The position numbers were made by a program, and so were the translations under genes. From Xanthomonas cucurbitae (GTDB lineage: Bacteria; Pseudomonadota; Gammaproteobacteria; Xanthomonadales; Xanthomonadaceae): DNA of 64,000 bases. The stretch is taken from NCBI RefSeq assembly GCF_002939885.1, contig NZ_MDED01000003.1, forward strand, positions 1 to 64,000, read 5' to 3'. This document shows positions 1,741-20,270 of the stretch, in pieces. Every line of letters begins with the position of its first letter. Position 1 is the stretch's first letter. The notes under the pieces are model-generated. The model had not been told where the DNA came from, made no database searches, and saw only the letters and a list, made by a program, of their open reading frames with translations.

Positions 1741-1815
1741 GCACGCGGTGCTCGCTGCGCCTTGCGCATCGATGCGTTTTGCCTGCACCGCCGCGTACCG
1801 GCGCAGTGACACCCG

Positions 1816-1845
1816 CACCTGCCGCGCCCCGGAACGCGGCAGGTG
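1816..1845 (+). terminator. Hairpin downstream of the barrel protein, probable terminator
   Basis: An 11-bp perfect stem (CACCTGCCGCG at 1816-1826 and its complement at 1835-1845) closes an 8-base loop. It is followed by GGCTTT, so the T tract is short. It lies 75 bases after the barrel gene stop and ahead of the DUF502 gene. Confidence 0.45.
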
Positions 1846-1930
1846 GCTTTCCAGCGCCTGCGCTGCAATCGATGCATCACCTGCGCACTGCCGACTGCAC
1901 CGGACGCGGCCGAATGCCTACACTACCCGC

Positions 1931-3387: not shown

Positions 3388-3586
3388 GCCAGGCCGCCGC
3401 GCCGGTGACATGCGTGGAGCCAGACGCGGCAAGGCCTGGCCCGGTTGCCGCCGTCCTGCAGGCGGAGGCCAGCCGGGTCCAGGACGGTGCCATGCATGAA
3501 TTGCGGATGGGCGGCCTGCCTGCAATGGGTGGCCGTGGCGGTGCGGATCGGGCAAGCTCCCCGCTCGCTTGTTTCCGGAGCCGGTA

Positions 3587-5542: not shown

Positions 5543-5795
5543 AGCCAGCTCAGGCATGCCCTAGGGTGCGCAAGCGAGCAGGCAGTGCAGGCAGGCAATC
5601 TGGCGACCACCTGTCGCGCCTGCGGCAAAGCCCGGCTAGCCGCCGAGACCACGCTGCCGTGCTGCGTGGGCGGCCAGACCACGACGAGTCCGCATGCGCG
5701 CATCCCGCAGCGCACCTTTCCGCCACCATACCCCACGGTATACATTCGTGGTCAGGCCGCCGACGGCGGCCCCAGTCATCCCTGGGAGGGGACAC

Positions 5796-6245
5796 ATGCG
5801 CAAGACCTTCAAGACCCTGATCGTGGCCCTGCCGCTGGCGGCCGCTTCGTTGCTGGCGCAGGCCTCCGATTCGCCGGTAGGCCGCTGGAAGACCATCGAC
5901 GACGAGACCGGCAAGCCCAAGTCGGTGGTGCAGATCGAACAGGCCGCCAACGGCACCCTCAGCGGCAAGGTGGTGGACATCCTGCAGTCGGCCAAGGGCC
6001 CGAACCCGCTGTGCGACAAGTGCGATGGCGAGCGCAAGAACAAGCCGATCAAGGGCATGACCATCCTCTGGGGCCTCAAGCCCGACGGCACCGCGGTGTG
6101 GGACGGCGGCTCGGTGCTGGACCCGGCCAAGGGCAAGACTTACAAGGCCAAGATCACCCTGACCGAAGGCGGCAAGAAATTGCAGATGCGCGGCTATGTC
6201 GGCATCGAAGCGCTCGGCCGCACGCAGACCTGGGTGCGCGAGTAA
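5796..6245 (+). CDS. DUF2147 family secreted protein
   Basis: A 149-residue protein with a clear signal peptide (residues 1-22, ending AQA) and the DUF2147 fold: GRWKTIDDETGKPKSVVQI early, a CDKC pair in the middle, and GGKKLQMRGY near the end. Many DUF2147 proteins are periplasmic with no assigned activity. The two Cys at about residues 70-73 could bind a metal or form a disulfide. The ATG at 5796 has a strong GGGAGGGG Shine-Dalgarno at 5784-5791. It stands alone between a DUF885 gene and metG and is followed by a rho-independent terminator. Confidence 0.85.
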   Translation: MRKTFKTLIVALPLAAASLLAQASDSPVGRWKTIDDETGKPKSVVQIEQAANGTLSGKVVDILQSAKGPNPLCDKCDGERKNKPIKGMTILWGLKPDGTAVWDGGSVLDPAKGKTYKAKITLTEGGKKLQMRGYVGIEALGRTQTWVRE

Positions 6246-6410
6246 TCGGGAATCGGGAATCGGGAATTGGGAATGGGGAATTGGGAATCGCAAGAGCGGG
6301 CGTCCTTCGGGGCGCCTTTTTTATGCCGCAGCGCGCAGCCCGCCTTCTCACCATGCAGACCTGCTCCACCGATTCCCCATTCCCGATTCCCCATTCCCCA
6401 TTCCCGACTA
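6246..6410. repeat. Inverted GGGAATCG-type intergenic repeat pair
   Basis: Five to six near-tandem copies of an octamer-like unit (GGGAATCG and GGGAATTG variants) occupy 6247-6288. Complementary copies (CGATTCCC, CCATTCCC) occupy 6369-6408, so the two blocks can form a long stem around the terminator at 6299-6322. The same type of pair recurs at 8535-8721, 59199-59352 and 59838-59920. Confidence 0.8.
6299..6322 (+). terminator. Rho-independent terminator after the DUF2147 gene
   Basis: The stem GGCGTCC (6299-6305) pairs with GGGCGCC (6310-6316) around a UUCG tetraloop, with one G-U pair, and is followed by six T (6317-6322). It sits 54 bases past the DUF2147 stop. Confidence 0.85.
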
Positions 6411-6411
6411 G

Positions 6412-6420
6412 TGCGATAAT
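6412..6420 (+). promoter_or_regulatory. Possible extended -10 element ahead of metG
   Basis: TGCGATAAT at 6412-6420 matches an extended -10 (TG-N-GATAAT), 26 bases before the metG ATG. No good -35 is visible because the upstream bases belong to the repeat block. Confidence 0.35.
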
Positions 6421-6446
6421 CGGGTGTCCCCCGCATTACGCCCGCC

Positions 6447-8531
6447 ATGACCCGCACCGCACTCGTTACCACCGCCCTGCCCTATGCCAACGGCCCGCTG
6501 CATCTGGGACACCTGGTCGGCTATATCCAGGCCGACATCTGGGTGCGCGCGCGCCGGTTGCGCGGCGACAAGACCTGGTTCGTCTGCGCCGACGACACCC
6601 ACGGCACGCCGATCATGCTGGCCGCCGAGAAGGCCGGGGTGACCCCGGAAGCCTTCATCGCCAGCATCCAGGCCAGCCATGAGCGCGATTTCGCGGCGTT
6701 CGGAGTGACCTTCGATCATTACGATTCGACCAATTCGCCGGTCAATCGCGAGCTCACCGAGGCCTTCTACAGCAAGCTGGAAGCGGCCGGTCATATCAGC
6801 CGGCGTTCGGTGGCGCAGTTCTACGACCCGGCCAAGGGCATGTTCCTGCCGGACCGCTACATCAAGGGCATCTGCCCCAACTGCGGCAGCGCCGACCAGT
6901 ACGGCGACAACTGCGAGGCGTGCGGTGCGACCTATGCGCCCACCGAGTTGAAGGAGCCAAAGTCGGTGATCTCCGGCGCCACGCCGGAGCTGCGCGATTC
7001 GGAGCATTTCTTCTTTGAAGTGGGCCATTTCGACGGCTTCCTGCGCGAGTGGCTGGCGGGCGATGTGGCGCTGCCCGGCGTCAAGGCCAAGCTCAAGGAA
7101 TGGCTGGATGCCGAAGGCGGCCTGCGCGCGTGGGACATCTCGCGCGATGCGCCGTATTTCGGTTTCCAGATTCCCGGCCAGCCGGGCAAGTATTTCTACG
7201 TGTGGCTGGATGCGCCGATCGGCTACCTGTGCAGCTTCAAGACGCTGTGCGCGCAGATGGGCGAAGACTTCCAAGCGCATCTGGTCGCCGGCACCCAGAC
7301 CGAACTGCATCACTTCATCGGCAAGGACATCGTGAACTTCCACGGCCTGTTCTGGCCAGCGGTACTGCACGGCACCGGCCACCGCGCCCCCACGCGCCTG
7401 CATGTCAACGGCTATCTGACAGTGGACGGCGCCAAGATGTCCAAGTCGCGCGGTACCTTCGTGATGGCGCGGACCTTCCTGGACGTGGGCCTGGAGCCGG
7501 AGGCGCTGCGCTATTACTTTGCGGCCAAATCCTCCGGCGGCGTGGACGATCTGGACCTCAATCTGGGCGATTTCATCGCACGGGTGAATGCGGATCTGGT
7601 CGGCAAGTTCGTCAACCTGGCCAGCCGCTGCGCCGGCTTCATCGGCAAGCGCTTCGATGGCAAGCTGGCCGACGCGCTGCCCGACCCGGCGCAGTACGAC
7701 CGCTTCGTCGCCGCGCTGGCGCCGATCCGCGAGGCCTACGAACGCAACGATGCGGCCAGCGCGATCCGCCAGACCATGGCGCTGGCCGACGAGGCCAACA
7801 AGTACATCGACGACACCAAGCCGTGGGTGATCGCCAAGCAGGAGGGCGCCGATGCGCAGCTGCAATCGGTCTGCACGCAAGGCCTGAACCTGTTCCGCAT
7901 CCTGGTGGCCGGCCTCAAGCCGATCCTGCCGCGCACCTGCGCCGAAGCCGAGGCGTTTTTGTCGGCGCCGATGACCAGCTGGGAAGATGTGGAGCGCCCG
8001 CTCACCGCACACACGATCCAGCCCTACACCGCCCTGTTCACCCGTATCGACCCCAAACTGATCGACGCCATGACCGACGCTTCCAAAGACACGATGGCCG
8101 CACCTGCGGCACCGGCTACGACCACCAAGCCCGCACCCAGCAAGGCCGACGCAAAGCCTGCCGCCGTTGCGAATCCCGAATCCCAAACCACCAATCCCGC
8201 CCTCATCGGCATCGACGATTTCGCCAAGCTCGACCTGCGCATCGGCAAGGTGTTGGTGTGCGAGTTCGTGGAAGGCTCGGACAAGCTGCTGCGTTTCGAA
8301 CTGGATGCCGGCGAGCTGGGCAAGCGTCAGATCTTCTCGGGCATCCGTGGCAGCTACGGCGAACCGGAAACGTTGGTCGGCCGCAACGTGGTATTCATCG
8401 CCAACCTGGCCCCGCGCAAGATGCGCTTCGGCATCAGCGAAGGCATGATTCTCTCGGCTGGCTTCGACGGCGGCGCACTGGCGCTGCTGGACGCCAATGG
8501 CGGCGCGCAGCCTGGCATGCCTGTCAGGTAA
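6447..8531 (+). CDS. metG: Methionyl-tRNA synthetase
   Basis: A 694-residue class I synthetase that charges initiator and elongator tRNA-Met in the cytoplasm. Signatures: HLGH at residues 19-22 (the HIGH motif), a zinc knuckle with Cys143, Cys146, Cys156 and Cys159, and KMSKS at 330-334. An anticodon-binding helical domain follows, then a variable Ala/Pro/Thr linker (about 545-585), then a C-terminal EMAP-type tRNA-binding domain (about 588-694) used for dimerisation. The linker DNA contains GAATCCCGAATCCC words like the neighbouring intergenic repeats. Length and domain order are normal for the dimeric bacterial type. Confidence 0.98.
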   Translation: MTRTALVTTALPYANGPLHLGHLVGYIQADIWVRARRLRGDKTWFVCADDTHGTPIMLAAEKAGVTPEAFIASIQASHERDFAAFGVTFDHYDSTNSPVNRELTEAFYSKLEAAGHISRRSVAQFYDPAKGMFLPDRYIKGICPNCGSADQYGDNCEACGATYAPTELKEPKSVISGATPELRDSEHFFFEVGHFDGFLREWLAGDVALPGVKAKLKEWLDAEGGLRAWDISRDAPYFGFQIPGQPGKYFYVWLDAPIGYLCSFKTLCAQMGEDFQAHLVAGTQTELHHFIGKDIVNFHGLFWPAVLHGTGHRAPTRLHVNGYLTVDGAKMSKSRGTFVMARTFLDVGLEPEALRYYFAAKSSGGVDDLDLNLGDFIARVNADLVGKFVNLASRCAGFIGKRFDGKLADALPDPAQYDRFVAALAPIREAYERNDAASAIRQTMALADEANKYIDDTKPWVIAKQEGADAQLQSVCTQGLNLFRILVAGLKPILPRTCAEAEAFLSAPMTSWEDVERPLTAHTIQPYTALFTRIDPKLIDAMTDASKDTMAAPAAPATTTKPAPSKADAKPAAVANPESQTTNPALIGIDDFAKLDLRIGKVLVCEFVEGSDKLLRFELDAGELGKRQIFSGIRGSYGEPETLVGRNVVFIANLAPRKMRFGISEGMILSAGFDGGALALLDANGGAQPGMPVR
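8171..8201. repeat. GGGATTCG-like words inside the metG linker
   Basis: The stretch contains GAATCCCGAATCCC and CCAATCCCGCC, the same words as the intergenic repeats on both sides of metG. It encodes part of the flexible linker before the tRNA-binding domain (Asn-Pro-Glu-Ser-Gln and so on). Confidence 0.55.
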
Positions 8532-8534
8532 CGA

Positions 8535-8721
8535 GATTGGGGAGTTGGGATTTGGGATTCGTAGAAGCCGGAGCTGATTGTTGTAGTAGACCTGACTTGA
8601 GTGCTTGGCGCGTGCCCTCATCCGCCCCTGCGGGGCACCTTCTCCCGCACGCGGGAGAAGGGAACAATCAGTCACCGCGCTTTTAACCAATCCCCACTCC
8701 CGACTCCCCAATCCCCGCCCC
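8535..8721. repeat. Composite repeat between metG and the HAD gene
   Basis: GGGATT-type words at 8535-8561 face their complement at 8687-8721 (CCAATCCCC, CTCCCGACTCCCC), forming an outer inverted pair. Nested inside is a REP-like core (8612-8662). The whole gap between metG and the next gene is occupied by this structure. Confidence 0.75.
8612..8662. repeat. REP-like double-hairpin element
   Basis: GCCCC-TGC-GGGGC (8624-8636) is followed by a perfect 11-bp hairpin, CCTTCTCCCGC (8638-8648) with its complement at 8651-8661. The word order (CCCTCATCCGCC, then CACCTTCTCCC, then GGGAGAAGG) is familiar from short dispersed elements in many proteobacterial genomes, recalled rather than searched. 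Confidence 0.7.
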
Positions 8722-8722
8722 C

Positions 8723-9313
8723 ATGCACCTGGCCCTGTTCGACTTCGACCACACCATCACCACCTGCGACACCTATGCGCGCTTTCTGCGCAAGGTCGCC
8801 ACGCCCGCGCAGCTGGCGTCGGCAAAGTGGCAGGTCGGCCCGTGGGTGCTGGGCTATCGGCTGGGCATGGTGTCCGCTGCCGCGCTGCGCGCGCGGGTCA
8901 CGCGCATCGTGTTCAGTGGGCGCTCGCTGGACAAGATGGCCGCGCATGGTGCCGATTACGCGCGCACGGCACTGCCGGGTGTGCTGCGTGCAGAAGTGAT
9001 GCAACGCATCGACTGGCACCAGGCGCAAGGGCATGAGGTGGTGCTGGTCTCCGCATCGCTGGATCTTTACCTGCAGCCCTGGTGCACGCAGCATGGGCTG
9101 TCGCTGATCTGCAACCGGCTCGAACACACCGGCGGCGTACTGAGCGGGCGCTATGCCGAGGGTGATTGCGGGCCGCACAAGGCCCGGCAGATTCGCGCGC
9201 GCTACGACCTGGCACAATACGCCTGCGTGCATGCCTATGGCGACAGCCGCGAAGACCAGCCGATGCTGGCACTGGCGCAACAGCGTTGGTATCGCGGCCA
9301 TCGGCTGCACTGA
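8723..9313 (+). CDS. HAD-IB family phosphatase (phosphoserine phosphatase-like)
   Basis: A 196-residue cytoplasmic hydrolase. Motif I is DFDHT with nucleophile Asp7 and Asp9; motif II is the VLVSAS segment near residue 110; motif III/IV is [10 protein letters not shown] near 173-182. Cap and core match the HAD subfamily IB, which includes phosphoserine phosphatase and lipid-phosphate phosphatases. No serine pathway gene is adjacent, so the substrate is open. It begins just after the composite repeat and ends 7 bases before the RnfB-like gene, suggesting a two-gene unit. Confidence 0.85.
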
Positions 9314-9320
9314 CATCGCA

Positions 9321-9740
9321 ATGCCCATTCCCGCGCCCGATCTGGTCGAACGGCTCGACCGCCTGTTGCCGCAAACCCAATGCGGCCAGTGCGGCTACGA
9401 CGGCTGCCGCCCCTACGCGCAGGCGATGGCGGACGGCCAGGCAGGGGTCGACCACTGCCCTCCCGGCGGCGATGCCGGCGCGCGTGCGCTGGCCCAGCTG
9501 CTGGGCGTGCCCGCAAGCCCCTACGATCGCAGTCGCGGGGCGCACAAGCCGGCGCAGGTGGCGTGGATCGTGGAGGCCGACTGCATCGGCTGTACCAAAT
9601 GCATCCAGGCCTGCCCGGTGGATGCCATCGTCGGCGGCGCCAAGCACATGCATACGGTCATCGCGCCGCTGTGTACCGGTTGCGAGCTGTGCCTGCCGGC
9701 GTGCCCGGTGGATTGCATCGCCCTGCATCCGCTGGGCTGA
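9321..9740 (+). CDS. rnfB: RnfB/RsxB-like iron-sulfur protein, stand-alone
   Basis: A 139-residue protein with an Fe-S domain at the N-terminus (CGQCGYDGC at residues 21-29, with a further Cys in DHCPPGG) and two ferredoxin-type CxxCxxCxxxCP clusters (about 88-99 and 118-129). This is the core of RnfB, the electron-transfer subunit of Rnf/Rsx complexes, but the N-terminal membrane anchor of canonical RnfB is absent and the protein is short. No other rnf genes are present in this window. It may serve as a soluble multi-cluster ferredoxin. The ATG at 9321 follows the HAD gene by 7 bases. Confidence 0.82.
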
Positions 9741-9920
9741 AGACCGTGCCGGCGCAAGGCGTTGCCGGTCGCCACGCCGCCTGCCAGGCCAGGTATGTCG
9801 CGGCGCAGGCAGCATCACCCCATTCTCCCCACGCCCGGTCGGGAACGTCCTGACGCCTGGCGGCGCATCCATGCCGCAGCCGTGCCCGTATGGGTAAGCA
9901 TCCCCATCGAGGACCTGCCG

Positions 9921-10700
9921 ATGCGTTCACTTGCTGCCGCGCTTGCCGCCTGCTGCCGACCGATTCCACCATTGCTGCTGCTTGTGCTTGGCAGCCTGCC
10001 GCTGAGCGCGGCGGCGGTCACCCAGGTGGATGGCGAGGCCTACGACGCCGACAGCGGCGCCTTGCGCTACCGTGAATCGCATTGGCTGCTCGACGACGGT
10101 GGGCGGCTGGTGCTGTACCGCTGCCCCAACGGGCAGGCGTTCGCGCGCAAGCAGATCGATGGGGGCGGCCCGTCGCCCGATTTCAGCCTGATCGATGAAC
10201 GCGATGGCTATCGCGAAGGCGTACGTCGGCGCGAGGGCGTGCGCGAGATGTTCCAGCAACCGCCCGGCAAGCCCGAGCGCCGCACCGCGTTGCCGGCTGG
10301 CAAGGACGAACGCGTCATCGATGCCGGCTTCGACGCCTATCTGCGCGCCCACTGGGATGCCCTGGCCACCACGGCGCAGCGGGTGGATTTCGTGCTGCCC
10401 AGCCTGCAACGGCAGTTGGCGTTTCGTGTCGAACGCATCGACGATGCTGCAGGCCAGCGACGCTTCCGCATCGCGCTGGATACGTGGTACGGCGCCGTGG
10501 TGCCGTCGCTGGAGGTGCGCTATTCCATCGCCAGCAAGCGCCTGCTGGAGTTTCGCGGCGTGGGCAACCTGCGCGATGCGCAGGGGCGCTACCCGCGCGT
10601 GCGCATCGTATTCCCCGACACCGCTCCACGGGCAAGCACCGACGCGGCGTTGCGCCAGGCACGCGAGCAGGCCCTGACCCGTAGCTGCACCACGGCGTGA
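9921..10700 (+). CDS. Secreted protein of unknown function
   Basis: A 259-residue protein I do not recognise. A signal peptide spans residues 1-31 (LLLLVLGSLPLSAAA core, cleavage near SAAA-V). The mature part starts with a beta-rich segment (VDGEAYDADSGALRYRESH), contains two Cys (near residue 73 and close to the C-terminus), and has acidic, Arg-rich stretches. The ATG at 9921 is chosen because it starts exactly at the signal peptide; an upstream in-frame ATG at 9762 would add an unlikely leader. Probably periplasmic. It is upstream of a small membrane protein and an ECF sigma factor, but cotranscription is not evident. Confidence 0.7.
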   Translation: MRSLAAALAACCRPIPPLLLLVLGSLPLSAAAVTQVDGEAYDADSGALRYRESHWLLDDGGRLVLYRCPNGQAFARKQIDGGGPSPDFSLIDERDGYREGVRRREGVREMFQQPPGKPERRTALPAGKDERVIDAGFDAYLRAHWDALATTAQRVDFVLPSLQRQLAFRVERIDDAAGQRRFRIALDTWYGAVVPSLEVRYSIASKRLLEFRGVGNLRDAQGRYPRVRIVFPDTAPRASTDAALRQAREQALTRSCTTA

Positions 10701-10785
10701 CGCCGGTCCGCGCCATCTTCACGCCCGACCACGCGCCGTTGCGTACAACGGCCCGGGCACCCATTCCGCGCACAGGAGCACCCGC

Positions 10786-11151
10786 ATGGCAAAGGCCTAC
10801 CTCTGGATCAACGCAGTGCTCTACCTCGCCCTGGCGGTGTGGTGCACGCTTTCGCCGCTCAAGACCGCAAACGCGGTGGGCTATACCCAGCTGTCGCCGG
10901 CCGGGCAATCCGAATACCTGGTCATCTATGGCGGCCTGCAGCTGGGCATGGCGTTCCTGTTCGGCTATTTCGCCTGGATCGATCAAGCGCGCACCGGGCT
11001 GGTGGTCGCACTGGCTTTCTACGTACCGATCGTGCTGTTCCGCAGCGCGTCGCTGGCCAAACTATGGCCGGTTTCTGCGCCCACGGTGGCGTTGGCGGGG
11101 GTGGAAATCGTGTTGCTGCTCGCTGCCGCACTGCTGTGGTGGCGCAAATGA
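10786..11151 (+). CDS. Small integral membrane protein, DUF4345-like
   Basis: A 121-residue protein with four hydrophobic helices (about 4-22, 45-64, 71-88 and 97-117) and a short polar tail. The GYTQLSP...YGGLQLG pattern recalls DUF4345-type membrane proteins, but this is only a resemblance. It starts after CAGGAG at 10769-10774 and precedes the ECF sigma gene by 46 bases, so it may belong to the same transcription unit. No catalytic residues are evident. Confidence 0.65.
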   Translation: MAKAYLWINAVLYLALAVWCTLSPLKTANAVGYTQLSPAGQSEYLVIYGGLQLGMAFLFGYFAWIDQARTGLVVALAFYVPIVLFRSASLAKLWPVSAPTVALAGVEIVLLLAAALLWWRK

Positions 11152-11197
11152 AGGACAGGCTTGGCCCACTCCGGTAGCATCGCGTACATCTCTTCCG

Positions 11198-11773
11198 ATG
11201 CCCGACCGCATGAGTGCCATTCCTGGCCAAGACGACGATGAAACCGGACGCCTGCTGACCGCAACCGCGGGCGGCGACCGGCATGCCTTCGAAGCGCTGT
11301 ACCGGCAGACCTCGCCCAAGCTGTTCGGCGTGTGCCTGCGCTTGATCCCGCAGCGCGCCGAGGCAGAGGAAGTGCTGCAGGACGTGTTCACGCTGATCTG
11401 GCACAAGGCCGGCCAGTTCGACCCCGGCCGTGCACGCGGCCTGACCTGGCTGGCGATGATCGCGCGCAACAAGGCCATCGACCACTTGCGCGCCAATGCG
11501 CCGCAACGCCGCAACGTGGCGCTGGACGATGCCGGCGAGCTGCGCGACCACGATGCACTACCACTGGAGCGCACCGAACGCGCCAGCACGCGCCGCCGCA
11601 TCGACCACTGCCTGGCCGAGCTGGAGCCGCCACGCAGCGAACTGATTCGCACCGCCTTCTTCGAAGGCATCACCTACGAGGAGCTTGCCGCGCGCACCGA
11701 TACCCCCATCGGCACGGTCAAGAGCTGGATCCGCCGTAGCCTGGCCAAACTCAAGGCATGCCTGGAACGATGA
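11198..11773 (+). CDS. ECF sigma-70 family RNA polymerase sigma factor
   Basis: A 191-residue alternative sigma factor. Region 2 (about residues 30-100) includes the FEALYRQTSPKLFG and DVFTLIWHKAGQFD segments; region 4 (about 130-185) includes the helix-turn-helix TYEELAARTDTPIGTVKSW. There is no region 3, as expected of the ECF group. The ATG at 11198 was chosen; an in-frame ATG at 11210 is also possible. Its stop overlaps the anti-sigma start (ATGA), the classic sigma/anti-sigma arrangement. The downstream lipid cluster is the likely target by position. Family is firm; the exact ECF group and inducing signal are not determined. Confidence 0.93.
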   Translation: MPDRMSAIPGQDDDETGRLLTATAGGDRHAFEALYRQTSPKLFGVCLRLIPQRAEAEEVLQDVFTLIWHKAGQFDPGRARGLTWLAMIARNKAIDHLRANAPQRRNVALDDAGELRDHDALPLERTERASTRRRIDHCLAELEPPRSELIRTAFFEGITYEELAARTDTPIGTVKSWIRRSLAKLKACLER

Positions 11774-12603
11774 GTACGTCCCTTCCCATCGACCAGGAAC
11801 CACCGCGCGACGTGCTGGCCGGCGAGTACGTGCTCGGCCTGCTCGGCGCCGACGAACGTCTGGCGGCCGAGCAGCGCATCGCCACCGATGCCCCGTTCGC
11901 GCAGGCAGTGCTGCAGTGGCAGGACCACCTGGCTCCGCTGCTGGAAGAGATCGCCGCGGTGACGCCGCCGGACCAGGTCTGGGCACGCGTGCGCCAGACA
12001 CTGGGCTTCGACGCGCCGCTGCGCGCGGTGCCGACAGCAGCGCCTGCAAGCACCGGCACACCGGCGGCACCGCTCTGGAACAACCTGCGCTTCTGGCGCT
12101 GGGCCAGCGCCGGTGGGCTGGCCACCGCGGCGGCATGCGTGCTGGCGCTGTTGAATCTGCGAACTGCGCCTGCCCCTGTGCAACCGCCGCGCGAGACGCC
12201 CCTCGTGCAGGCGCCGGCTACCCCGCCTGCGGCGACCACGCCGACGACGACCGGCATCGCGATGACCTCGACACTGGCCACCGCAGACGGGCGGCCAGGC
12301 TATGTGGCGCTGATGGATGCCGACAAGCGCACCATCACGGTCACCCCGCTGGACCGCACGGCCACTGCCGACAAGGTGCCCGAACTGTGGCTGATTACGC
12401 CCGATGGCAAGGCGCATTCGATGGGCACCTTCGACGACCAGCGGGCACGCCGCACCCAGATTCCCGACCAGCTGATGCCCATGCTCGGCAACGAGGCGAT
12501 CCTGGCGGTGACGCTGGAACCGCCAGGTGGTGCACCCGGTGGCGTGGCGACCGGCACGGTGGTGGCAAAGGGCGGTATCAGTACGCTGGCGATGGCGCCC
12601 TGA
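11770..12603 (+). CDS. RskA-type anti-sigma factor
   Basis: A 277-residue single-pass membrane protein. The cytoplasmic N-terminus (1-107) should bind the sigma factor, a transmembrane helix lies at about 108-130, a Pro/Thr/Ala-rich spacer follows, and the C-terminal RskA-like domain (about 150-277, with PELWLITPDGKAHSMG) is periplasmic. There is no HxxxCxxC motif, so it is not a zinc-binding ChrR-type anti-sigma. Release of sigma would be expected through proteolysis of the membrane protein. The start overlaps the sigma gene stop (ATGA), implying coupled synthesis. Confidence 0.9.
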   Translation: MSTSLPIDQEPPRDVLAGEYVLGLLGADERLAAEQRIATDAPFAQAVLQWQDHLAPLLEEIAAVTPPDQVWARVRQTLGFDAPLRAVPTAAPASTGTPAAPLWNNLRFWRWASAGGLATAAACVLALLNLRTAPAPVQPPRETPLVQAPATPPAATTPTTTGIAMTSTLATADGRPGYVALMDADKRTITVTPLDRTATADKVPELWLITPDGKAHSMGTFDDQRARRTQIPDQLMPMLGNEAILAVTLEPPGGAPGGVATGTVVAKGGISTLAMAP

Positions 12604-12919
12604 GCCAACCGCACCGCCGCCGCGTCCCCAGGCAGGCACGCGCCGGCAGGGGCGACTTGTGGCCGCCGGCACAGGCGGCCACGCTGCTGCCGGATGGCGA
12701 TGCCTGCTGCACGGCCCGTGGCTTCCACGCACGCAGTGCATTCACAAGCGACCTCGGGTGCGCCGGTGATACTGGGCGCACAGATTGGCACCTGCGGGCG
12801 CGCGCGTCGTGCGTGCGTGCGAGCCGGCGCGTCACATGCATGCGACGATCCAGCCGGTTGGTGCATCCATTGGCCGGCGGTTTCCGTAGAACGACACCAC
12901 GACCTCTGGAGATTGATGC
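12604..12919. other. 316-base gap between anti-sigma and desaturase genes
   Basis: GC-rich, no convincing coding sequence. A perfect 9-bp hairpin, GTGGCCGCC (12659-12667) with its complement at 12674-12682, lies near the start but has no T tract. The rest could carry the promoter of the lipid cluster; I could not assign -35/-10 boxes with confidence. GGAG at 12908-12911 is the ribosome-binding site for the desaturase. Confidence 0.5.
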
Positions 12920-13920
<1,001 letters not shown>

Positions 13921-13924
<4 letters not shown>

Positions 13925-15171
13925 GCGAGCGCAGGATTGCCGTGGTCGGCAGCGGCATTGCCGGCCTGGGCGCGGCGTGGCTGCTGTCGCGCCGCCATGA
14001 GGTCACCTTGTTCGAGGCCGCCGATTACCTGGGCGGCCACACTCACACCCACCAGATCCAGCTCGACGGCCAGCGCTACGCGGTGGACAGCGGCTTCATC
14101 GTGTTCAACCCGCAGCACTACCCGTTGCTCACGCGCATGTTCGCCGAGCTCGACGTGGCCGCGCAGCCGACCACGATGAGCTTTTCGGTGCACGATGCGC
14201 GCAGCGGGCTTGAGTACAACGCCGGCACCTTGAACGGGCTGTTCTGCCAGCGCCGCAACCTGCTCAGCCCACGCTTCTGGGGCATGCTGGCCGACCTGCG
14301 CCGCTTCTATCGGCAGGCGCCGGCGGTGCTGCACAGCGACGAGCGCTTCAGCACGCTAGGCGCGTATCTACAGCGGCACGGCTATGGCGCGGCGTTCCGC
14401 GACCAGCATCTGGTGCCGATGGCGTCGGCGCTATGGTCCTCGCCATCGCAGACCATTCTCGAATTTCCAATGGGCCAGTTGATCGGCTTCATGGCCAACC
14501 ACCACATGCTGCAACTCAGCGGGCGGCCGCAGTGGCAGGTGGTGCGTGGCGGTTCCAATAGCTATGTGCGTGCGCTGCGGCGGCGCTGGCAGGTACTCGA
14601 GCGCCTGTCCACGCCAGTGCATGGTATCCGCCGTACGCCCGATGGCGTGGTGGTGAGCTCGCTGCGCGGACAGGAACACTTCGACGAGGTGGTGCTGGCC
14701 TGCCACGCCGACGATGCGCTGGCCTTGCTCAGCGATGCGTCCGAGGCCGAACAGCAGATCCTGGGCGGCATCACCTACCAGAACAACGACACCGTGCTGC
14801 ATACCGACGCGCGCATCCTGCCGCGCGACCGCCGCGCCTGGGCCGCCTGGAATGCGCATGTCCCGGCCGACCCGCAGGCGCCCTGCACGGTGAGTTACTG
14901 GATGAACGCGCTGCAATGCATCGACGCACCGCAGCCGTTCATCGTCAGCCTCAACCGCGACCACGACATCGACCCGGCCAAGGTGCTGCGGCGCATGCGC
15001 TACCGGCACCCGGTGCAGAACGCCGCCGCGCTGGCGGCGCAGGGCCGCAAGGCCGAGATCCAGGGCAAGCAGCACACCTGGTTTGCCGGCGCGGCCTGGG
15101 GTTTCGGCTTCCACGAAGATGGCCTGCGCAGCGGCGTGGATGTGGCGCATGGACTGGGAGTGAGCTGGTAA
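13921..15171 (+). CDS. FAD-dependent oxidoreductase, flavin-amine-oxidase fold
   Basis: A 416-residue protein with a Rossmann dinucleotide site at the N-terminus ([18 protein letters not shown], residues 7-24) followed by [13 protein letters not shown], the glycine-rich and acidic signature of the amine-oxidase/desaturase flavoprotein group. The C-terminus has the FAD-contacting [14 protein letters not shown] segment. In other bacteria this family sits next to DUF1365 and cyclopropane synthase genes and is thought to act on lipid acyl chains, but its reaction here is inferred only. Overlaps both neighbours (ATGA with the desaturase, 1 base with DUF1365). Confidence 0.88.
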
Positions 15172-16148
15172 TGCACCTGCTGCGCGAAGCCAGTACCGAT
15201 ACCGTGCCGCTGCCTTCCGGTGAGGACAGCGGTGCCGGCAGCGTGGCGGTCGGCTTGCGCAGCGCGATTTACACCGGCTGGGTGCGGCACCGGCGGTTCG
15301 CACCCAAGCCGCTGGACTTCCGTTACCGGCTGTTTCTGCTGTATCTGGATCTGTCCGAGCTGGATCAGGTGTTCGCAGGCCGCTGGCTGTGGTCGGTGGG
15401 GCGCGCCAACCTGGCGCAGTTTCGCCGCAGCGATTACCTGGGCGATCCGGCCATTCCGCTGGATCAGGCCGTGCGCGATTGCGTGCAGGCGCACACCGGC
15501 GAGCGCCCGGATGGTGCGATCCGCCTGCTGACGCACCTGCGCTACTTCGGCCATGTGTTCAACCCGGTGAGCTTCTACTACTGCTTCGACCGGCATGACG
15601 GCCTGCGCTGGATCGTGGCGGAAATCACCAACACGCCATGGCAGCAACGCCACGCCTACGTGCTGCCGGTGGCACAGGCGCGCAGCCACCGCGACGTGCA
15701 CGCCTGGCGCTTCGACAAGCGCTTCCATGTCTCGCCGTTTATGGGCATGCAGCATCAATACGACTGGCGCTTCAGCGTGCCGGCCGCGCAACTGCGCGTG
15801 CATATGGATGTGCTGGATGCGCCGCACGCCGCCGATACCGATACCGATACCGATACCGATACCGATGCCGATACCGATGCCGATACCGATACCGATACCG
15901 ATACCGATACCGATACCGATGCCGATGCCGATGCCGATGCCGAGCACAATGGCACGCGCCGCTTCGATGCCACGCTGGTGCTGCAACGTCAGCCACTGAC
16001 CGCGCGTACGCTGGCGCGCACCTTGTTCGCCTACCCCTTGATGACCGTGCAGGTCGTGATCGCCATCCACTGGCAGGCCTTGCGCCTGTGGCTGCGCGGC
16101 AACCCTGTGCATGACCACCCCCACCCGCCTGTGCGAGATCGCCGATGA
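15171..16148 (+). CDS. DUF1365 family protein with Asp-Thr/Asp-Ala repeat insert
   Basis: A 325-residue protein. The DUF1365 signatures are present: YTGWVRHRRFAPKPLDFRY (from about residue 34), LTHLRYFGHVFNPVSFYYC (about 120-138) and the FHVSPFMGMQHQYDW segment. Codons 222-257 are an insert of 18 Asp-Xaa dipeptides (Thr or Ala in the second place), encoded by a GATACC/GATGCC microsatellite, between two conserved strands. Function of DUF1365 is unknown; it nearly always sits between an FAD oxidoreductase and a cyclopropane synthase, exactly as here. Start and stop both overlap the neighbouring genes. Confidence 0.9.
   Translation: MHLLREASTDTVPLPSGEDSGAGSVAVGLRSAIYTGWVRHRRFAPKPLDFRYRLFLLYLDLSELDQVFAGRWLWSVGRANLAQFRRSDYLGDPAIPLDQAVRDCVQAHTGERPDGAIRLLTHLRYFGHVFNPVSFYYCFDRHDGLRWIVAEITNTPWQQRHAYVLPVAQARSHRDVHAWRFDKRFHVSPFMGMQHQYDWRFSVPAAQLRVHMDVLDAPHAADTDTDTDTDTDADTDADTDTDTDTDTDTDADADADAEHNGTRRFDATLVLQRQPLTARTLARTLFAYPLMTVQVVIAIHWQALRLWLRGNPVHDHPHPPVRDRR
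15834..15941 (+). repeat. In-frame hexanucleotide microsatellite (18 units)
   Basis: Eighteen perfect 6-base units of GATACC (13 copies) or GATGCC (5 copies... by order: five ACC, GCC, ACC, GCC, six ACC, four GCC, i.e. 12 ACC and 6 GCC). The unit is a multiple of three, so changes in copy number keep the DUF1365 reading frame and only lengthen or shorten an acidic tract. Confidence 0.97.
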
Positions 16149-17431
16149 ACGCCACGTCCCTGCCCGACTCCGCCGTGCCGCGCGCGGCCTCCTGGACGGA
16201 CCGCCTGTTGCGCAAGCGCCTGTTGGCCACGCTGGGCGAGCTGCGCGACGGGCAGCTGCAGCTGCACGACGCCGACGGCATCACCACGCTGGGCACTGCC
16301 AGCGGCGCGGACGCGTTGCAGGTGCAGCTGCGCGTGACCGACCCGGGCTTCTACCGCCAGGCCGCACTCAACGGCAGCGTGGGGGCCGGCGAGTCTTACA
16401 TGGACGGGCAATGGCAATGCGACGATCTGGTTGGGCTGATGCGCGTGCTGCTGCGCAATCGTGACCGCCTGGATGCGATGGAGACCGGCACCGCGCGCCT
16501 GGGCGGCTGGGCCATGCGCAGCCTGCATGCCTTCGCGCGTAATACCCGCAGCGGCAGCCGGCGCAATATCGCCGCGCACTACGACCTGGGCAACCCGCTG
16601 TTCAAATTGTTCCTGGACGAAAACCTGATGTATTCGTCGGCGATCTTCGTCGATGGCGAGGAGGCGCAGGCCGAGGCGGCACTGGAGCGCGCAGCCACGC
16701 GCAAGCTCGAACGCATCTGCCAGAAGTTGCGTCTTGGTCCGCAGCATCACGTAGTGGAGATCGGCACCGGCTGGGGCGGCTTCGCCCTGCACGCGGCCCG
16801 CGAACACGGCTGCCGCGTCACCACCACCACGATTTCGCGCGAGCAGTTCGAGCTGGCATCGCAACGCATCGCCGCTGCCGGCCTGAGCGACCGGGTCACG
16901 GTACTGCTGAGCGACTACCGCGACCTGCAGGGACGCTTCGATCGCGTGGTGTCGATCGAGATGATCGAGGCGATCGGCCACCAGTATCTGGACACCTACT
17001 TCGCCAAGGTCGGCAGCCTGCTCACCGACGATGGCGAGGCGCTGATCCAGGCCATCACCATTGAAGACCATCGCTACAAGCAGGCGCTGCACTCGGTGGA
17101 CTTCATCAAGCGGCACATCTTTCCCGGCAGCTTCATTCCCTCGGTGGCGGCAATGACCGGGGCGGTGGCACACGCCAGCGATCTGCGCCTGTTCCATCTG
17201 GAAGACATCGGCCCCAGCTATGCATTGACCCTGCGCGCCTGGCGGCAGCGCTTCATGGCGCAGCTGCCGCAGGTGCGCGCACTGGGCTACGACGAGCGCT
17301 TCATCCGCATGTGGGAGTTCTACCTGGCCTATTGCGAAGCGGGCTTCCTGGAGCGCTCGATCGGCGACGTCCATCTATGGCTCAACAAGCCCGGCGCGCG
17401 TCCGCCGCAGTTTGTGCCCGGCCTTGCGTGA
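16145..17431 (+). CDS. cfa: Cyclopropane-fatty-acyl-phospholipid synthase
   Basis: A 428-residue SAM-dependent methyltransferase that adds a methylene group across double bonds of phospholipid acyl chains at the membrane face. The SAM site VVEIGTGWGG is at about residues 200-209; family motifs include NIAAHYDLGNPLF, YSSAIF, and the C-terminal WEFYLAYCEAGF. An N-terminal lipid-binding region precedes the catalytic domain, matching full-length Cfa. Start overlaps the DUF1365 stop (ATGA). As the fourth gene of the run it is the best understood and anchors the cluster to acyl-chain modification. Confidence 0.93.
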   Translation: MNATSLPDSAVPRAASWTDRLLRKRLLATLGELRDGQLQLHDADGITTLGTASGADALQVQLRVTDPGFYRQAALNGSVGAGESYMDGQWQCDDLVGLMRVLLRNRDRLDAMETGTARLGGWAMRSLHAFARNTRSGSRRNIAAHYDLGNPLFKLFLDENLMYSSAIFVDGEEAQAEAALERAATRKLERICQKLRLGPQHHVVEIGTGWGGFALHAAREHGCRVTTTTISREQFELASQRIAAAGLSDRVTVLLSDYRDLQGRFDRVVSIEMIEAIGHQYLDTYFAKVGSLLTDDGEALIQAITIEDHRYKQALHSVDFIKRHIFPGSFIPSVAAMTGAVAHASDLRLFHLEDIGPSYALTLRAWRQRFMAQLPQVRALGYDERFIRMWEFYLAYCEAGFLERSIGDVHLWLNKPGARPPQFVPGLA

Positions 17432-17434
17432 GGC

Positions 17435-17980
17435 ATGCAGCAGCTCGGCAACTATCTCGGCTTGCAGGTGCTCTGGGTGGTGGCGGTAGCCGCCGCCGCG
17501 GACGGGCGCGTGTGGCCAACGCTGCTGGTACTGGCGCTGTTTGCGCTGTATCAACTGTGGCCCTCGCGACGCGCGGCCGGGGATGTGCCGTTGCTGATCG
17601 CCGCATTGGCACTGGGTTTGCTGCTGGACACCACGCTGGCCGCTGGCGGCTGGGTGCGCTATGCCATGCCATGGCCCGGTAGCGTGCTGGCGCCGGCATG
17701 GATCCTGGCGTTGTGGCTGGGCTTTGCGCTCACGCTCAACCATTCGCTGCGCAGCGTGATGCAACGCCCGTGGCTGGCGGTGTCGCTGGGGGCCATCTTC
17801 GGCCCATTTTCGTACTGGCTGGCGCAGCGCAGTTGGCACGCCGTGGAACTGTTGCCGCCGTTGATGCATGCGGCCCTCGCCGTCGGCATCGGCTGGGGCG
17901 TGGCCTGCGGCGTGTTGTCGCTGTATGCACGGCGCCTGCAGCGACCATTGACACAACCGAATCCTGGAGAACTGCAATGA
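17435..17980 (+). CDS. DUF2878 family membrane protein
   Basis: A 181-residue polytopic membrane protein with about five hydrophobic helices. The conserved features of DUF2878 are visible: a QVLWVVAVAAA N-terminal helix, LLLDTTLAAGG, the LALWLGFALTLNHSL helix, and FGPFSYWLAQR. No activity is assigned to the family, which is repeatedly found beside DUF1295 and cyclopropane-synthase genes. It begins 3 bases after the Cfa stop and overlaps the DUF1295 gene (ATGA). Confidence 0.87.
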   Translation: MQQLGNYLGLQVLWVVAVAAAADGRVWPTLLVLALFALYQLWPSRRAAGDVPLLIAALALGLLLDTTLAAGGWVRYAMPWPGSVLAPAWILALWLGFALTLNHSLRSVMQRPWLAVSLGAIFGPFSYWLAQRSWHAVELLPPLMHAALAVGIGWGVACGVLSLYARRLQRPLTQPNPGELQ

Positions 17981-18759
17981 CTGCCTGGCCGCTGCTGCAT
18001 GTCGCCTTCTTCGCCAGCGGGGTGATGCTGCTCGGGTGGCTGTGGCAGCGCCGCAGCGGCAATGCCGGGCCGGTGGACGTGTTGTGGGCCGCCTGCCTGG
18101 CGGTGGCTGCGCCGTACTGCGCCTGGATGTCCGACGGTGCGTTGCTGCCGCGCGTATTGGTGGCGGTACTTGGCGGTCTGTGGGGCGCGCGGCTGGCCTG
18201 GCATCTGGGCGTGCGCGTGTTCGGCGACCCGCACGAGGACGGTCGTTATCGCGCCCTGCGCGCGCACTGGAACGGCGACCAGCACAAATTCCTCGGCTTT
18301 TTCCTGGCCCAGGCGGTGGTGGTGGTGCTGTTTGCAGTGCCATTCCTGGCCGCCGCCAGCAACCCCAACCCCGACTGGAGCCTGTGGACCAGCCTGGCGA
18401 TCGTGGTGTGGCTGGTCGCCGTCGGTGGCGAGGCCCTGGCCGACCGGCAACTGTCGCTGCACAAAGCCAATCCGGCCAATCGCGGCAAGACCTGTCGCAA
18501 GGGCCTGTGGCGGTATTCGCGCCATCCCAATTATTTCTTCGAGTTCGTGCATTGGTTCGCCTACCTGGCGCTGGCCGTCGGCGCCGGGCCGTGGCCGGTG
18601 GCGCTGTGCGCGCTCGGGCCGGTGGTGATGTTCGTGTTCCTGTATCGCTTCACCGGCATTCCCTACACCGAGCAGCAGGCACTGCGCTCGCGTGGCGAGG
18701 ACTATGCGCAGTACCAACGCACCACCAGCGCGTTCTTCCCGCTTCCCCCTTCGTCCTGA
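17977..18759 (+). CDS. DUF1295 family, steroid 5-alpha-reductase-like membrane enzyme
   Basis: A 260-residue polytopic membrane protein with about six helices. The C-terminal signature RYSRHPNYFFEFVHW (about 182-196) and the following helices are typical of the DUF1295 / steroid-5-alpha-reductase superfamily, whose members reduce conjugated double bonds with NADPH or methylate prenyl Cys. In this setting reduction of a modified acyl chain is plausible, but inferred only. Starts within the DUF2878 stop (ATGA). Confidence 0.87.
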   Translation: MTAWPLLHVAFFASGVMLLGWLWQRRSGNAGPVDVLWAACLAVAAPYCAWMSDGALLPRVLVAVLGGLWGARLAWHLGVRVFGDPHEDGRYRALRAHWNGDQHKFLGFFLAQAVVVVLFAVPFLAAASNPNPDWSLWTSLAIVVWLVAVGGEALADRQLSLHKANPANRGKTCRKGLWRYSRHPNYFFEFVHWFAYLALAVGAGPWPVALCALGPVVMFVFLYRFTGIPYTEQQALRSRGEDYAQYQRTTSAFFPLPPSS

Positions 18760-18776
18760 GTTGTCTGGAGAGTTGC

Positions 18777-19847
18777 ATGTCCTCTGTCACCGCCCCGCCC
18801 TCCTCGCTCCCGGATGAAGCCTTCGCCACGCGCCTGGCCGAATCCGGTGTACTGCCCGATACCGCCCTGCGTTACGGCATCCGCCGTTTGTGCGCGCAGC
18901 GCCTGCGCGATGAGCGTGGCGACGACGCCGATGCCAACGGCGAGCGCCAACGCGCCTTCATCGACAGCCTGCGTGCCAGCGCGATCGCGATCGAAACCGA
19001 TGCGGCCAACCGCCAGCACTACGAATTGCCGCCGCAGTTCTTCACCCTGTGCCTGGGCAAGCGGCTGAAGTACAGCAGCTGCTACTGGGACGCGAGCACT
19101 CCGGACCTGGACGCGGCCGAAGAACGCATGCTGGCGCTGTACGGGCAACGCGCCGAGTTGGCCGATGGTCAACGCATCCTGGAGCTGGGCTGCGGCTGGG
19201 GCTCGCTGACCCTGTGGATGGCCGAGCGCTACCCCAACGCCACCATTACTGCGGTCTCCAACTCACGCCCGCAGCGCGCGCATATCCTGGAGCAGTGCCG
19301 TCTGCGCGGGCTGGGCAACGTGCAGGTCGTCACCGCCGACGTCAACGCGCTGGCGCTGCCGCCCGGCAATTTCGACCGTGTGGTCTCGGTGGAAATGTTC
19401 GAGCACATGCGCAACTACCGCGACCTGCTCGCGCGCGTGGGTAGCTGGCTGGCGCCGGGTGGCAAGCTGTTCGTGCACATCTTCTGCCACCGCGACCTGG
19501 CCTATCCCTTCGAAGTGGCCGGCGAAGACAACTGGATGGGCCGGCATTTCTTCACCGGCGGGCTGATGCCGGCAGCGGACACCTTGCTGCATTTCCAGCA
19601 GGACGTGGTCATCGAACAGCGTTGGCTGCTGTCGGGCCAGCATTACGAAAAAACCGCCAACGCCTGGCTGCAGAACCAGGACCGCCACCGCGCGCAGATC
19701 ATGCCGTTGTTGCAGCAAACCTATGGCGAGGATGCGCAGCGCTGGTGGCAGCGCTGGCGCATGTTCTGGCTGGCGTGCGCGGAACTGTTCGGCTACGACC
19801 AGGGCCGCGAATGGGGCGTGGCGCACTACCGCTTCGTCAAGCGCTGA
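18777..19847 (+). CDS. SAM-dependent methyltransferase, cyclopropane-synthase-like
   Basis: A 356-residue protein with SAM site ILELGCGWGS (about 138-147) and the CFA-like HYELPPQFF, YSSCYW and VSVEMFEHM motifs. It is shorter than the 428-residue Cfa upstream, lacks its long N-terminal region and has a different C-terminus, so it is a distinct paralogue. Possible roles are methylation of unsaturated acyl chains or another step on the same lipid. The ATG at 18777 follows CTGGAGAG at 18765-18772. It is the last gene of the run, 17 bases after DUF1295. Confidence 0.87.
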   Translation: MSSVTAPPSSLPDEAFATRLAESGVLPDTALRYGIRRLCAQRLRDERGDDADANGERQRAFIDSLRASAIAIETDAANRQHYELPPQFFTLCLGKRLKYSSCYWDASTPDLDAAEERMLALYGQRAELADGQRILELGCGWGSLTLWMAERYPNATITAVSNSRPQRAHILEQCRLRGLGNVQVVTADVNALALPPGNFDRVVSVEMFEHMRNYRDLLARVGSWLAPGGKLFVHIFCHRDLAYPFEVAGEDNWMGRHFFTGGLMPAADTLLHFQQDVVIEQRWLLSGQHYEKTANAWLQNQDRHRAQIMPLLQQTYGEDAQRWWQRWRMFWLACAELFGYDQGREWGVAHYRFVKR

Positions 19848-19922
19848 CGGTCCGGGCGCAACGCCAGCGCGCGATGGGCAGATGATCGCTGCTCGTCGCC
19901 AGCGATCGGCCTGCGGGGGCGG

Positions 19923-20270
19923 TCAGCCCGCCGCAGCGGTGATGACGATTTCCACCTTCCATTCCGGACGCGCCAACTTCGCTTCCACGGTGGCACGTGC
20001 CGGAGTGAAGCCATGCGGCACCCATTCGTCCCAGGCGGCGTTCATGCCGTCGAAGTCGGCGATGTCGGCCAGATAGATTTCAGCGCGCAGGATCTTGGTC
20101 TTGTCGCTGGCCGCCAGCGCCAACAACTTGTCGATCTCGCCCAGCACCTGGCGCGTCTGGCCGGTGATGTCCTGGTGGGTGTCTTCGGCAATCTGCCCGG
20201 CCAGGTAGCACACGCCGCCGTGGACGGTCATTTCCGACATGCGCGGGCCGGTATCGAATCGCTGCAGCAT
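19923..20270 (-). CDS. RidA family (YjgF/YER057c/UK114) protein
   Basis: A 115-residue cytoplasmic protein of the RidA superfamily, members of which hydrolyse reactive enamine/imine intermediates. Visible: the GGVCYLAGQIAED start of the fold, a LRAEIYLADIADF segment carrying the family Arg, and the terminal PARATVEAKLARPEWKVEI. The Arg and the final Glu-Ile are preserved. Start ATG at 20270 has GGAGG upstream on the minus strand; it begins 1 base after the stop of the DUF998-like gene, so the two are probably cotranscribed. Convergent with the lipid operon. Confidence 0.88.
   Translation of the reverse strand: MLQRFDTGPRMSEMTVHGGVCYLAGQIAEDTHQDITGQTRQVLGEIDKLLALAASDKTKILRAEIYLADIADFDGMNAAWDEWVPHGFTPARATVEAKLARPEWKVEIVITAAAG

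Follow-up and report, generated by a model that had tools for sequence, protein, structure and literature searches.

The locus analysed here lies in a window of 64 000 nucleotides (nt), the whole stretch at positions 1 to 64 000 of contig NZ_MDED01000003.1 in the Xanthomonas cucurbitae assembly GCF_002939885.1 (4.42 Mb in 181 contigs). It comprises the genes of an extracytoplasmic function (ECF) sigma factor and an RskA-type anti-sigma factor, followed by seven genes arranged head to tail (12920–19847), all on the + strand. Pfam assigned Sigma70_r2/r4 to the sigma factor and RskA_C to the anti-sigma factor; the seven other products were assigned, in order, to FA_desaturase, amino-oxidase/NAD_binding_8, DUF1365, CMAS, DUF2878, DUF1295 and a second CMAS. 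An earlier note on this DNA had described the sigma/RskA pair beside a lipid cluster, and every gene was recovered with the family given there. We consider it likely that the locus makes furan fatty acids (FuFA) on membrane phospholipids and is switched on via a SigK/RskA-type stress regulon. Families, gene order, clade, active-site changes, cysteines and motif positions were read from the sequence, and the enzyme activities of homologues were taken from published work. From these we infer the product, direct control by the sigma factor, the signal and the roles of the desaturase, DUF1295 and DUF2878.

Genes and sites of the locus

9864..9890, + strand: promoter predicted for the sigma operon, SigK-type (CGCATCC-N16-CGTA; first start codon 30 nt downstream)
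9921..10700, + strand: protein of unknown family, first gene of the sigma operon (start resembling a signal peptide by eye; no Pfam match)
10786..11151, + strand: DUF4345 protein of the sigma operon (Pfam 26.7 bits, cut-off 26.5)
11210..11773, + strand: ECF sigma factor, SigK-like (C138/C188, numbered from the 11198 start, equivalent to SigK C133/C183)
11770..12603, + strand: RskA-type anti-sigma factor without zinc motif (RskA_C)
12862..12888, + strand: promoter predicted for the FuFA operon, SigK-type (TGCATCC-N16-CGTA; start codon 31 nt downstream)
12920..13924, + strand: membrane fatty acid desaturase (FA_desaturase; two solved relatives are acyl-CoA desaturases)
13921..15171, + strand: UfaD-type flavin adenine dinucleotide (FAD) oxidoreductase (family and gene order; PMC7380195)
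15171..16148, + strand: UfaO-type DUF1365 protein, predicted furan-forming oxygenase (family and gene order; PMC7380195)
15832..15943, + strand: hexanucleotide repeat within ufaO, in frame (18.7 copies, Asp-Thr/Ala tract)
16145..17431, + strand: UfaM-type S-adenosylmethionine (SAM) methyltransferase of the Cfa family (without Cfa residues C139, H240 and H266)
17435..17980, + strand: DUF2878 protein (Pfam)
17977..18759, + strand: DUF1295 protein with SRHPNYFFE motif, a common neighbour of FufM
18777..19847, + strand: FufM-type SAM methyltransferase, coclaurine N-methyltransferase-like (structure search and tree)

The gaps within the seven-gene unit are −4, −1, −4, +3, −4 and +17 nt. Four of the six junctions thus overlap by 1 or 4 bases, in agreement with the short overlaps noted earlier at most junctions. 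The sigma and anti-sigma genes overlap by 4 nt, and 316 nt separate the anti-sigma gene from the desaturase gene. The sigma start had been placed at 11198; position 11210 is likelier, because the first ATG is missing and the second is kept in five same-genus relatives (L005–L009). The sigma transcription unit probably starts at 9921 and includes the DUF4345 gene, behind the promoter-like site at 9864–9890. Scans for sigma-70 promoters and terminators gave no more hits than in shuffled sequences.

The gene set was compared in 29 loci of the family and order. The desaturase, ufaD, ufaO, ufaM and FufM genes were each found in all 29, DUF1295 in 26, DUF2878 in 25 and an RskA-type gene in 14. A megablast search of 9800–20000 against plasmids gave no match.

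Enzymes of a probable furan fatty acid pathway

In Rhodobacter sphaeroides and Rhodopseudomonas palustris, the roles of UfaD, UfaO, UfaM and FufM are reported to rest on genetics and assays (PMC7380195). According to that report, UfaM methylates cis-vaccenate, the FAD protein UfaD (RSP1091/RPA2571) yields a methylated conjugated diene, the DUF1365 protein UfaO (RSP1090/RPA2570) closes the furan ring with O2, and FufM (RPA0924) carries out the second methylation. The activity of FufM was demonstrated there for RPA0924, which methylates 9M5-FuFA and not cis-vaccenate. The window encodes the same four enzyme families. Its FAD oxidoreductase, DUF1365 and Cfa-family genes stand together at 13921–17431, in the ufaD-ufaO-ufaM order of R. 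palustris RPA2571-2570-2569. Compared with the published pathway, all four enzymes are joined by DUF1295, DUF2878 and a desaturase in a single operon.

A DUF1365 gene was found in 153 of 398 genomes of the phylum sample, with a single match in each. The first 100 DUF1365 loci mapped (20 of the 79 positives of the family sample and 80 of the 153 of the phylum sample) all had ufaD adjoining ufaO. Both genes were on the same strand in 99; in L095, the sole exception, they are divergent with a gap of 392 nt.

A tree was built from 96 ufa-linked Cfa-like proteins, 20 unlinked ones from the same genome sample, Escherichia coli Cfa and 55 FufM-type proteins. All 96 ufa-linked proteins grouped in a single clade (0.977) that includes neither E. 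coli Cfa nor any of the 20 unlinked proteins. E. coli Cfa residue C139 is replaced in all of them (by S in 84, A in 11 and G in 1), and so are H266 (by Q) and H240 (by A), whereas E239, I268 and Y317 are kept. Residues C139, E239, H266, I268 and Y317 of E. coli Cfa are what we take to be its bicarbonate site. The 16145 protein has C139 changed to S and H266 to Q, with E239, I268 and Y317 kept; judged by its residues, this first Cfa-like protein does not belong to the cyclopropane synthases. No other full Cfa was found in the window genome, where two further PF02353 matches reached 39.6 and 23.5 bits; the two proteins of the locus score 260 and 124 bits.

These changes bear on the possibility that cyclopropane or 10-methyl-branched acids are the product instead, the first Cfa-like enzyme either closing a cyclopropane ring or methylating the chain before reduction by the FAD protein, as in the tuberculostearic acid route. 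Both Cfa-like genes do belong to PF02353, and in vitro synthesis of 10-methyl stearate has been reported for Mycobacterium tuberculosis UfaA1 (PMC5660069). We nevertheless regard this outcome as very unlikely: C139, H240 and H266 are changed throughout the ufa-linked proteins, no role is known for DUF1365 in a route of this kind, and the characterised homologues are reported to produce FuFA (PMC7380195).

When compared with solved structures, the DUF1365 protein gave only a weak match, to its repeat tract (E 0.0026). This hexanucleotide tract, for which no counterpart was found in seven relatives, could differ in length among strains without causing a frameshift.

The 18777 protein is separate from UfaM and Cfa in the tree and coclaurine-N-methyltransferase-like. 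Its best solved relative was coclaurine N-methyltransferase (6.5e-72), with cyclopropane synthase 6bqc far behind (2e-25). The earlier note had counted two different CFA-type methyltransferases: the two do differ, and can now be named more precisely as UfaM-type and FufM-type. Its proposal that a single acyl chain is modified in several steps, going beyond cyclopropanation, also held; the set matches the known FuFA pathway (PMC7380195) rather than novel chemistry. A search for FufM-type genes in the 398 phylum genomes gave 33 genomes with scores of at least 297 bits, the next highest score being 114 bits, which makes a clean split. DUF1365 was present in 30 of these 33 genomes versus 123 of the 365 others (Fisher p ~9e-11, ignoring phylogeny). 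The corresponding figures in the family sample were 78/79 and 1/70, with G063 and G142 (71% complete) as exceptions.

It is quite unlikely that the 18777 protein methylates N or O of a substrate other than a furan acid and is only carried along by the operon. Its best solved relatives are alkaloid N-methyltransferases, and three FufM genomes have no DUF1365. Set against this are the co-occurrence with DUF1365 in both samples, the single FufM-type match (47% identical to the window FufM) in the R. palustris-named genome JSC-3b (G623/L220), and the plant relative AT4G33110, which is reported to be 38% identical to FufM (PMC10940516). The three orphan FufM-type genes are those of G182, G508 and G527 (loci L109, L111 and L110), without a DUF1365 match in the genome. 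A C-terminal FufM-like piece (G362:C1:6453791-6454114; frame of 155 aa, 86 bits, 40% identity) was left out of the counts and is possibly a broken gene.

DUF1295 lies within 500 nt of FufM in 26 of 29 family and order loci and in 89 of 121 others (115/150), after removal of three doubly counted places from the latter set. It was found beside FufM in 8/8 loci (L190–L197) where the ~10 kb fetched contain no ufaD, and in 10/10 further Xanthobacteraceae-type loci with ufaD (L198–L207). This frequent position beside FufM suggests that DUF1295 serves the second methylation, i.e. the FufM step. It is not obligatory everywhere, since it is missing from 35 loci, including Bradyrhizobium-type and many Caulobacter-type ones. 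Deletion of RPA0923, numbered beside fufM, is listed in the published work (PMC7380195). Comparison of DUF1295 with solved structures gave no match.

The desaturase accompanies the system in 29/29 family and order loci read, and also on a plasmid of Acinetobacter sp. WY4. The solved acyl-CoA desaturase relatives of the 12920 protein are presumably delta-9 enzymes. It is not the only desaturase of the genome, as two more PF00487 genes were found.

Sigma factor, promoter motif and predicted regulon

With NCBIfam models, the window sigma factor scored 405 bits for PRK12534, over the cut-off, and 140 bits for SigK, whose cut-off is 226; it is therefore called SigK-like, not SigK. A single-sequence search of solved structures gave 87.9 bits for SigK (4nqw) and 87.7 bits for R. 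sphaeroides RpoE. The redox cysteines C133 and C183 of SigK align with C138 and C188 of the window protein (by our own count, the chain numbering of SigK is shifted by 17 in the structure alignment). Both are present in 16/16 sigma proteins aligned, namely that of the window and those of the 15 loci, out of 18 tried, with a sigma match of at least 90 bits. Such a pair is reported for 94% of ECF18, 56% of ECF19 and <2% of other groups (PMC7509140).

The absence of a zinc site from the anti-sigma factor, claimed in the earlier note, was confirmed: the HxxxCxxC motif was found in none of 16 RskA-type proteins examined. The window protein has neither this motif nor a ChrR cupin, and so lacks the marks of the RpoE/ChrR (ECF11) type. 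For contrast, the anti-sigma factors of L060 and L044 scored over the ChrR model cut-off and that of L088 just under it, all three with a ChrR cupin; that of L024 gave a weak ChrR match.

A search for a shared promoter motif upstream of 10786, 11198 and 12920 had been suggested. In an alignment of eight genomes, GCATC(C/T)-N16-CGTA was kept 56–58 nt before the desaturase start, in a stretch where hardly anything else was common to the two more distant genomes and the rest. In the window this element stands at 12862, before the 12920 gene. None was found directly before 10786 or 11198, and the site of the sigma operon is that at 9864; copies upstream of the sigma cluster were likewise seen in G064, G006, G139, G035 and G023. 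The pattern GCATC[CT]-N16-CGT was found within 300 nt of the desaturase in 14 of 15 family and order loci with adjacent SigK/RskA genes (window included), in 5/6 with another sigma factor, in 1/9 without a sigma gene in the locus, and in 9 of 1142 control windows. The one SigK/RskA locus that was missed, L025, has a copy at its aligned start.

Outside the family, SigK/RskA-type genes were found by ufa or fufM loci of Caulobacter (L229, with the sigma gene only near the locus end, and L250), Brevundimonas (L238) and Novosphingobium (L269), and in L027 and L204. In five of these six, GCATCC-N16-CGT precedes ufaD or its divergent partner. This strict form occurs in 14/20 SigK/RskA loci overall, and in 9/14 within the family, GCATCT taking its place in four same-genus loci. 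The box TGATCC was considered for loci with other sigma factors and rejected as not discriminating (51/69 versus 3/6, then 51/69 versus 12/20 once family loci were added).

The element could belong to another regulator, the FuFA operon not being controlled by the adjacent sigma factor. It is present in 5/5 family loci that have another sigma factor and a zinc-type anti-sigma motif nearby, and its strict form at 18 of the 66 outside loci where no sigma gene is linked; genome-wide counts are uninformative. We consider such an arrangement unlikely, given the contrast between 14/15 and 1/9 within the family and order, the presence of the element before the sigma operon and at SigK/RskA-linked loci of alpha- and betaproteobacteria, and its rarity (2/69, one place being counted twice) at outside loci with other sigma factors. 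For the 18/66, an unlinked sigma factor is the sole explanation offered. In L024, L118, L119, L121 and L123 (zinc-type motif found by pattern search, L024 alone being also compared with a model), the sequences suggest that the regulator was exchanged and the GCATCC promoter kept. Control of the cluster by the sigma factor, as put forward earlier, is supported by the shared promoter motif, which falls short of proof.

For further candidate targets we relied on orthologous positions only, genome-wide motif counts having been rejected as regulon evidence. In four same-genus genomes, the motif precedes the genes of MsrP, a fasciclin protein (PF02469) and an outer-membrane barrel (PF13505), 4/4 each, one copy of each being identified by model (471 bits for MsrP, NCBIfam cut-off 207). 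The motif occurred 5, 10, 9 and 6 times in these genomes, and the reversed pattern 0, 0, 0 and 1 times. Among 50 of the 130 listed sites examined in other genera, the motif lies before MsrP genes in G006, G134 and G139 and before fasciclin genes in G139 and G035, the spacers differing widely, and no outer-membrane barrel site was found. Lipocalin and Sir2 genes, each with a site in 2/4 same-genus genomes, are possible members. DUF1674 was rejected because its site lies, by eye, within an apparent inverted repeat. Such a repeat holds GCATCC-N16-CGTA in L164, L125, L146 and L128, near DUF1674 in three of the four, and is probably a hairpin, not a promoter.

On a conjugative plasmid of Burkholderia anthina, which provides the plainest additional example, the order is lipocalin, sigma, RskA_C anti-sigma, DUF1295, FufM, lipocalin, FAD, DUF1365 and Cfa genes. 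Motif sites precede the sigma gene (5512), DUF1295-fufM (7117) and the FAD gene (9730), and one lies inside the Cfa gene (12594). The cysteines of its sigma factor are 50 residues apart. This plasmid and L027 are not independent, since their sigma factors are nearly identical. The mobilizable Acinetobacter sp. WY4 plasmid carries the desaturase, FAD, DUF1365, Cfa, DUF1295 and FufM genes in the window order, without DUF2878 and sigma genes, after cryptochrome/photolyase, NudC and lipocalin genes. FuFA sets with FufM near cryptochrome/photolyase genes were seen in L341 (this plasmid, 420-10029) and L343 (a Cupriavidus plasmid, 2971-13033), i.e. in two of three FufM plasmid regions read; the third, L342, was typed conjugative. 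In an actinobacterium, the Streptomyces plasmid of L288 (8001-17257) has ufaD-ufaO-ufaM-DUF1295 beside a divergent sigma gene.

Proposed mechanism, known systems and meaning

The desaturase would supply cis-monounsaturated chains, probably delta-9. UfaM would add a methyl group at the double bond without forming a cyclopropane ring, UfaD would introduce a second, conjugated double bond, and UfaO would close the furan ring using O2. FufM, probably aided by DUF1295, would then attach the second ring methyl. A delta-9 C16 or C18 chain would give a 7M5/7D5- or 7M7/7D7-type acid, in contrast to the 9M5/9D5 acids made by Rhodobacter and Rhodopseudomonas. RskA would hold the sigma factor until a redox or light-related signal frees it. 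The freed factor would transcribe from GCATC(C/T)-N16-CGT its own operon (9864) and the FuFA operon (12862) and, elsewhere, msrP, whose product repairs methionine sulfoxide, and fasciclin genes.

A close regulatory parallel is the singlet-oxygen regulon of R. sphaeroides, in which RpoE/ChrR is reported to govern ufaD, ufaO and ufaM (RSP_1091, 1090 and 2144) and to induce the fasciclin gene RSP_1409, full RpoE activation needing RSP_1090/91 and CfaS (PMC7074977). The link of FAD-DUF1365-Cfa sets to photo-oxidative regulons, mentioned in the earlier note, is borne out by this report. ChrR has the zinc motif and a cupin, whereas control here would be of the SigK/RskA type, and GCATCC-N16-CGT is rare beside other sigma factors outside the family. 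The M. tuberculosis SigK/RskA pair (ECF18, with ECF19 in Yersinia; PMC7509140; PDB 4nqw) shares with the window an RskA_C protein without zinc site, both redox cysteines and a fasciclin-type target; the predicted targets here are the FuFA operon and msrP. The mycobacterial SigK targets MPT70/83 are, we assume, fasciclin proteins.

A photo-oxidative trigger is favoured by analogy with R. sphaeroides and other organisms. In Rhodobacter capsulatus, a SigK/RskA-like pair, reported to stand in place of RpoE/ChrR, is induced by photo-oxidative stress (PMC7074977). Light is described as inducing mpk83 and mpk70 of Mycobacterium kansasii, which have putative SigK sites, and not dipZ between them (PMC9861118). 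In a soil actinobacterium, RskA is reported to be lowered by UV (PMC8965627). The SAK1-dependent singlet-oxygen set reported for Chlamydomonas (PMC4067076) includes CFA1, CFA2 (coclaurine N-methyltransferase-like), DUF1365, DUF1295, fasciclin and methionine sulfoxide reductase genes; this is a eukaryote with another regulator and MSRA instead of MsrP, and the parallel is one of gene content. A DUF2177 gene, a family also present in the Chlamydomonas set, lies beside the chrR-fufM-ufa locus of L044 (15578-15997). The preference for a photo-oxidative trigger is tempered by the reported release of SigK under reducing conditions (PMC7509140), so that a thiol signal could act in either direction.

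Several findings weigh against a FuFA locus under SigK/RskA-type control. The sigma factor resembles RpoE about as well as SigK in the structure search and stays below the NCBIfam SigK cut-off. The UfaM clade was defined by linkage to ufaD/ufaO, with R. sphaeroides UfaM itself outside the tree, and FufM was compared with the gene of the R. palustris-named genome, not with RPA0924 itself. To these are added the three FufM genomes lacking DUF1365, the motif at all five family loci with zinc-type regulators and its strict form at outside loci without a linked sigma gene. Genome-wide, GCATCC-N16-CGTA occurs 9, 19, 5, 15 and 13 times in five family members without DUF1365/FufM versus 9, 15, 15, 12 and 18 times in five with the system; the window sigma factor has no match in four of the former and a weak match in the remaining genome (G029, 37%, 62 bits). 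R. capsulatus, despite its SigK/RskA-like pair, is reported to have no RSP_1090/1091 homologue (PMC7074977), so that such a pair is not linked with FuFA in every organism. Related genomes in the counts are not independent.

The FuFA pathway, the sigma family and each separate piece are already known. The combination of SigK/RskA with FuFA synthesis, the motif-defined regulon, the complete operon headed by a desaturase and the DUF1295-FufM pairing look new. Open-access titles and abstracts (subscription papers being mostly outside) gave none linking SigK/RskA to FuFA synthesis, PMC7074977 being the nearest, and nothing was found in the open-access literature that combines three of MsrP, fasciclin, ECF sigma and ChrR.

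More tentatively, and with slightly less than even confidence, SigK/RskA may be a membrane-photooxidation regulon of ancient origin that parallels RpoE/ChrR and can be exchanged for it, with FuFA, fasciclin and methionine-sulfoxide repair as core output and a similar toolkit in algae. The mycobacterial SigK regulon might then be a furan-lipid or related methyl-diene programme, FufM might depend on DUF1295 wherever the latter is present, and the acids of these bacteria might be 7D5-type and delta-9-derived.

FuFA are membrane lipids thought to quench damaging oxygen, and the SigK-type switch has been studied mainly in mycobacteria. FuFA gene sets also occur on plasmids, with photolyase genes adjoining in two of the three regions read. 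The residue signature separates UfaM from cyclopropane synthases for annotation, and DUF1295 is a possible missing component of dimethyl-FuFA synthesis. The trigger and purpose of SigK/RskA are described as open questions (PMC7509140, PMC5547695); the motif-defined regulon of FuFA, fasciclin and MsrP makes both testable.

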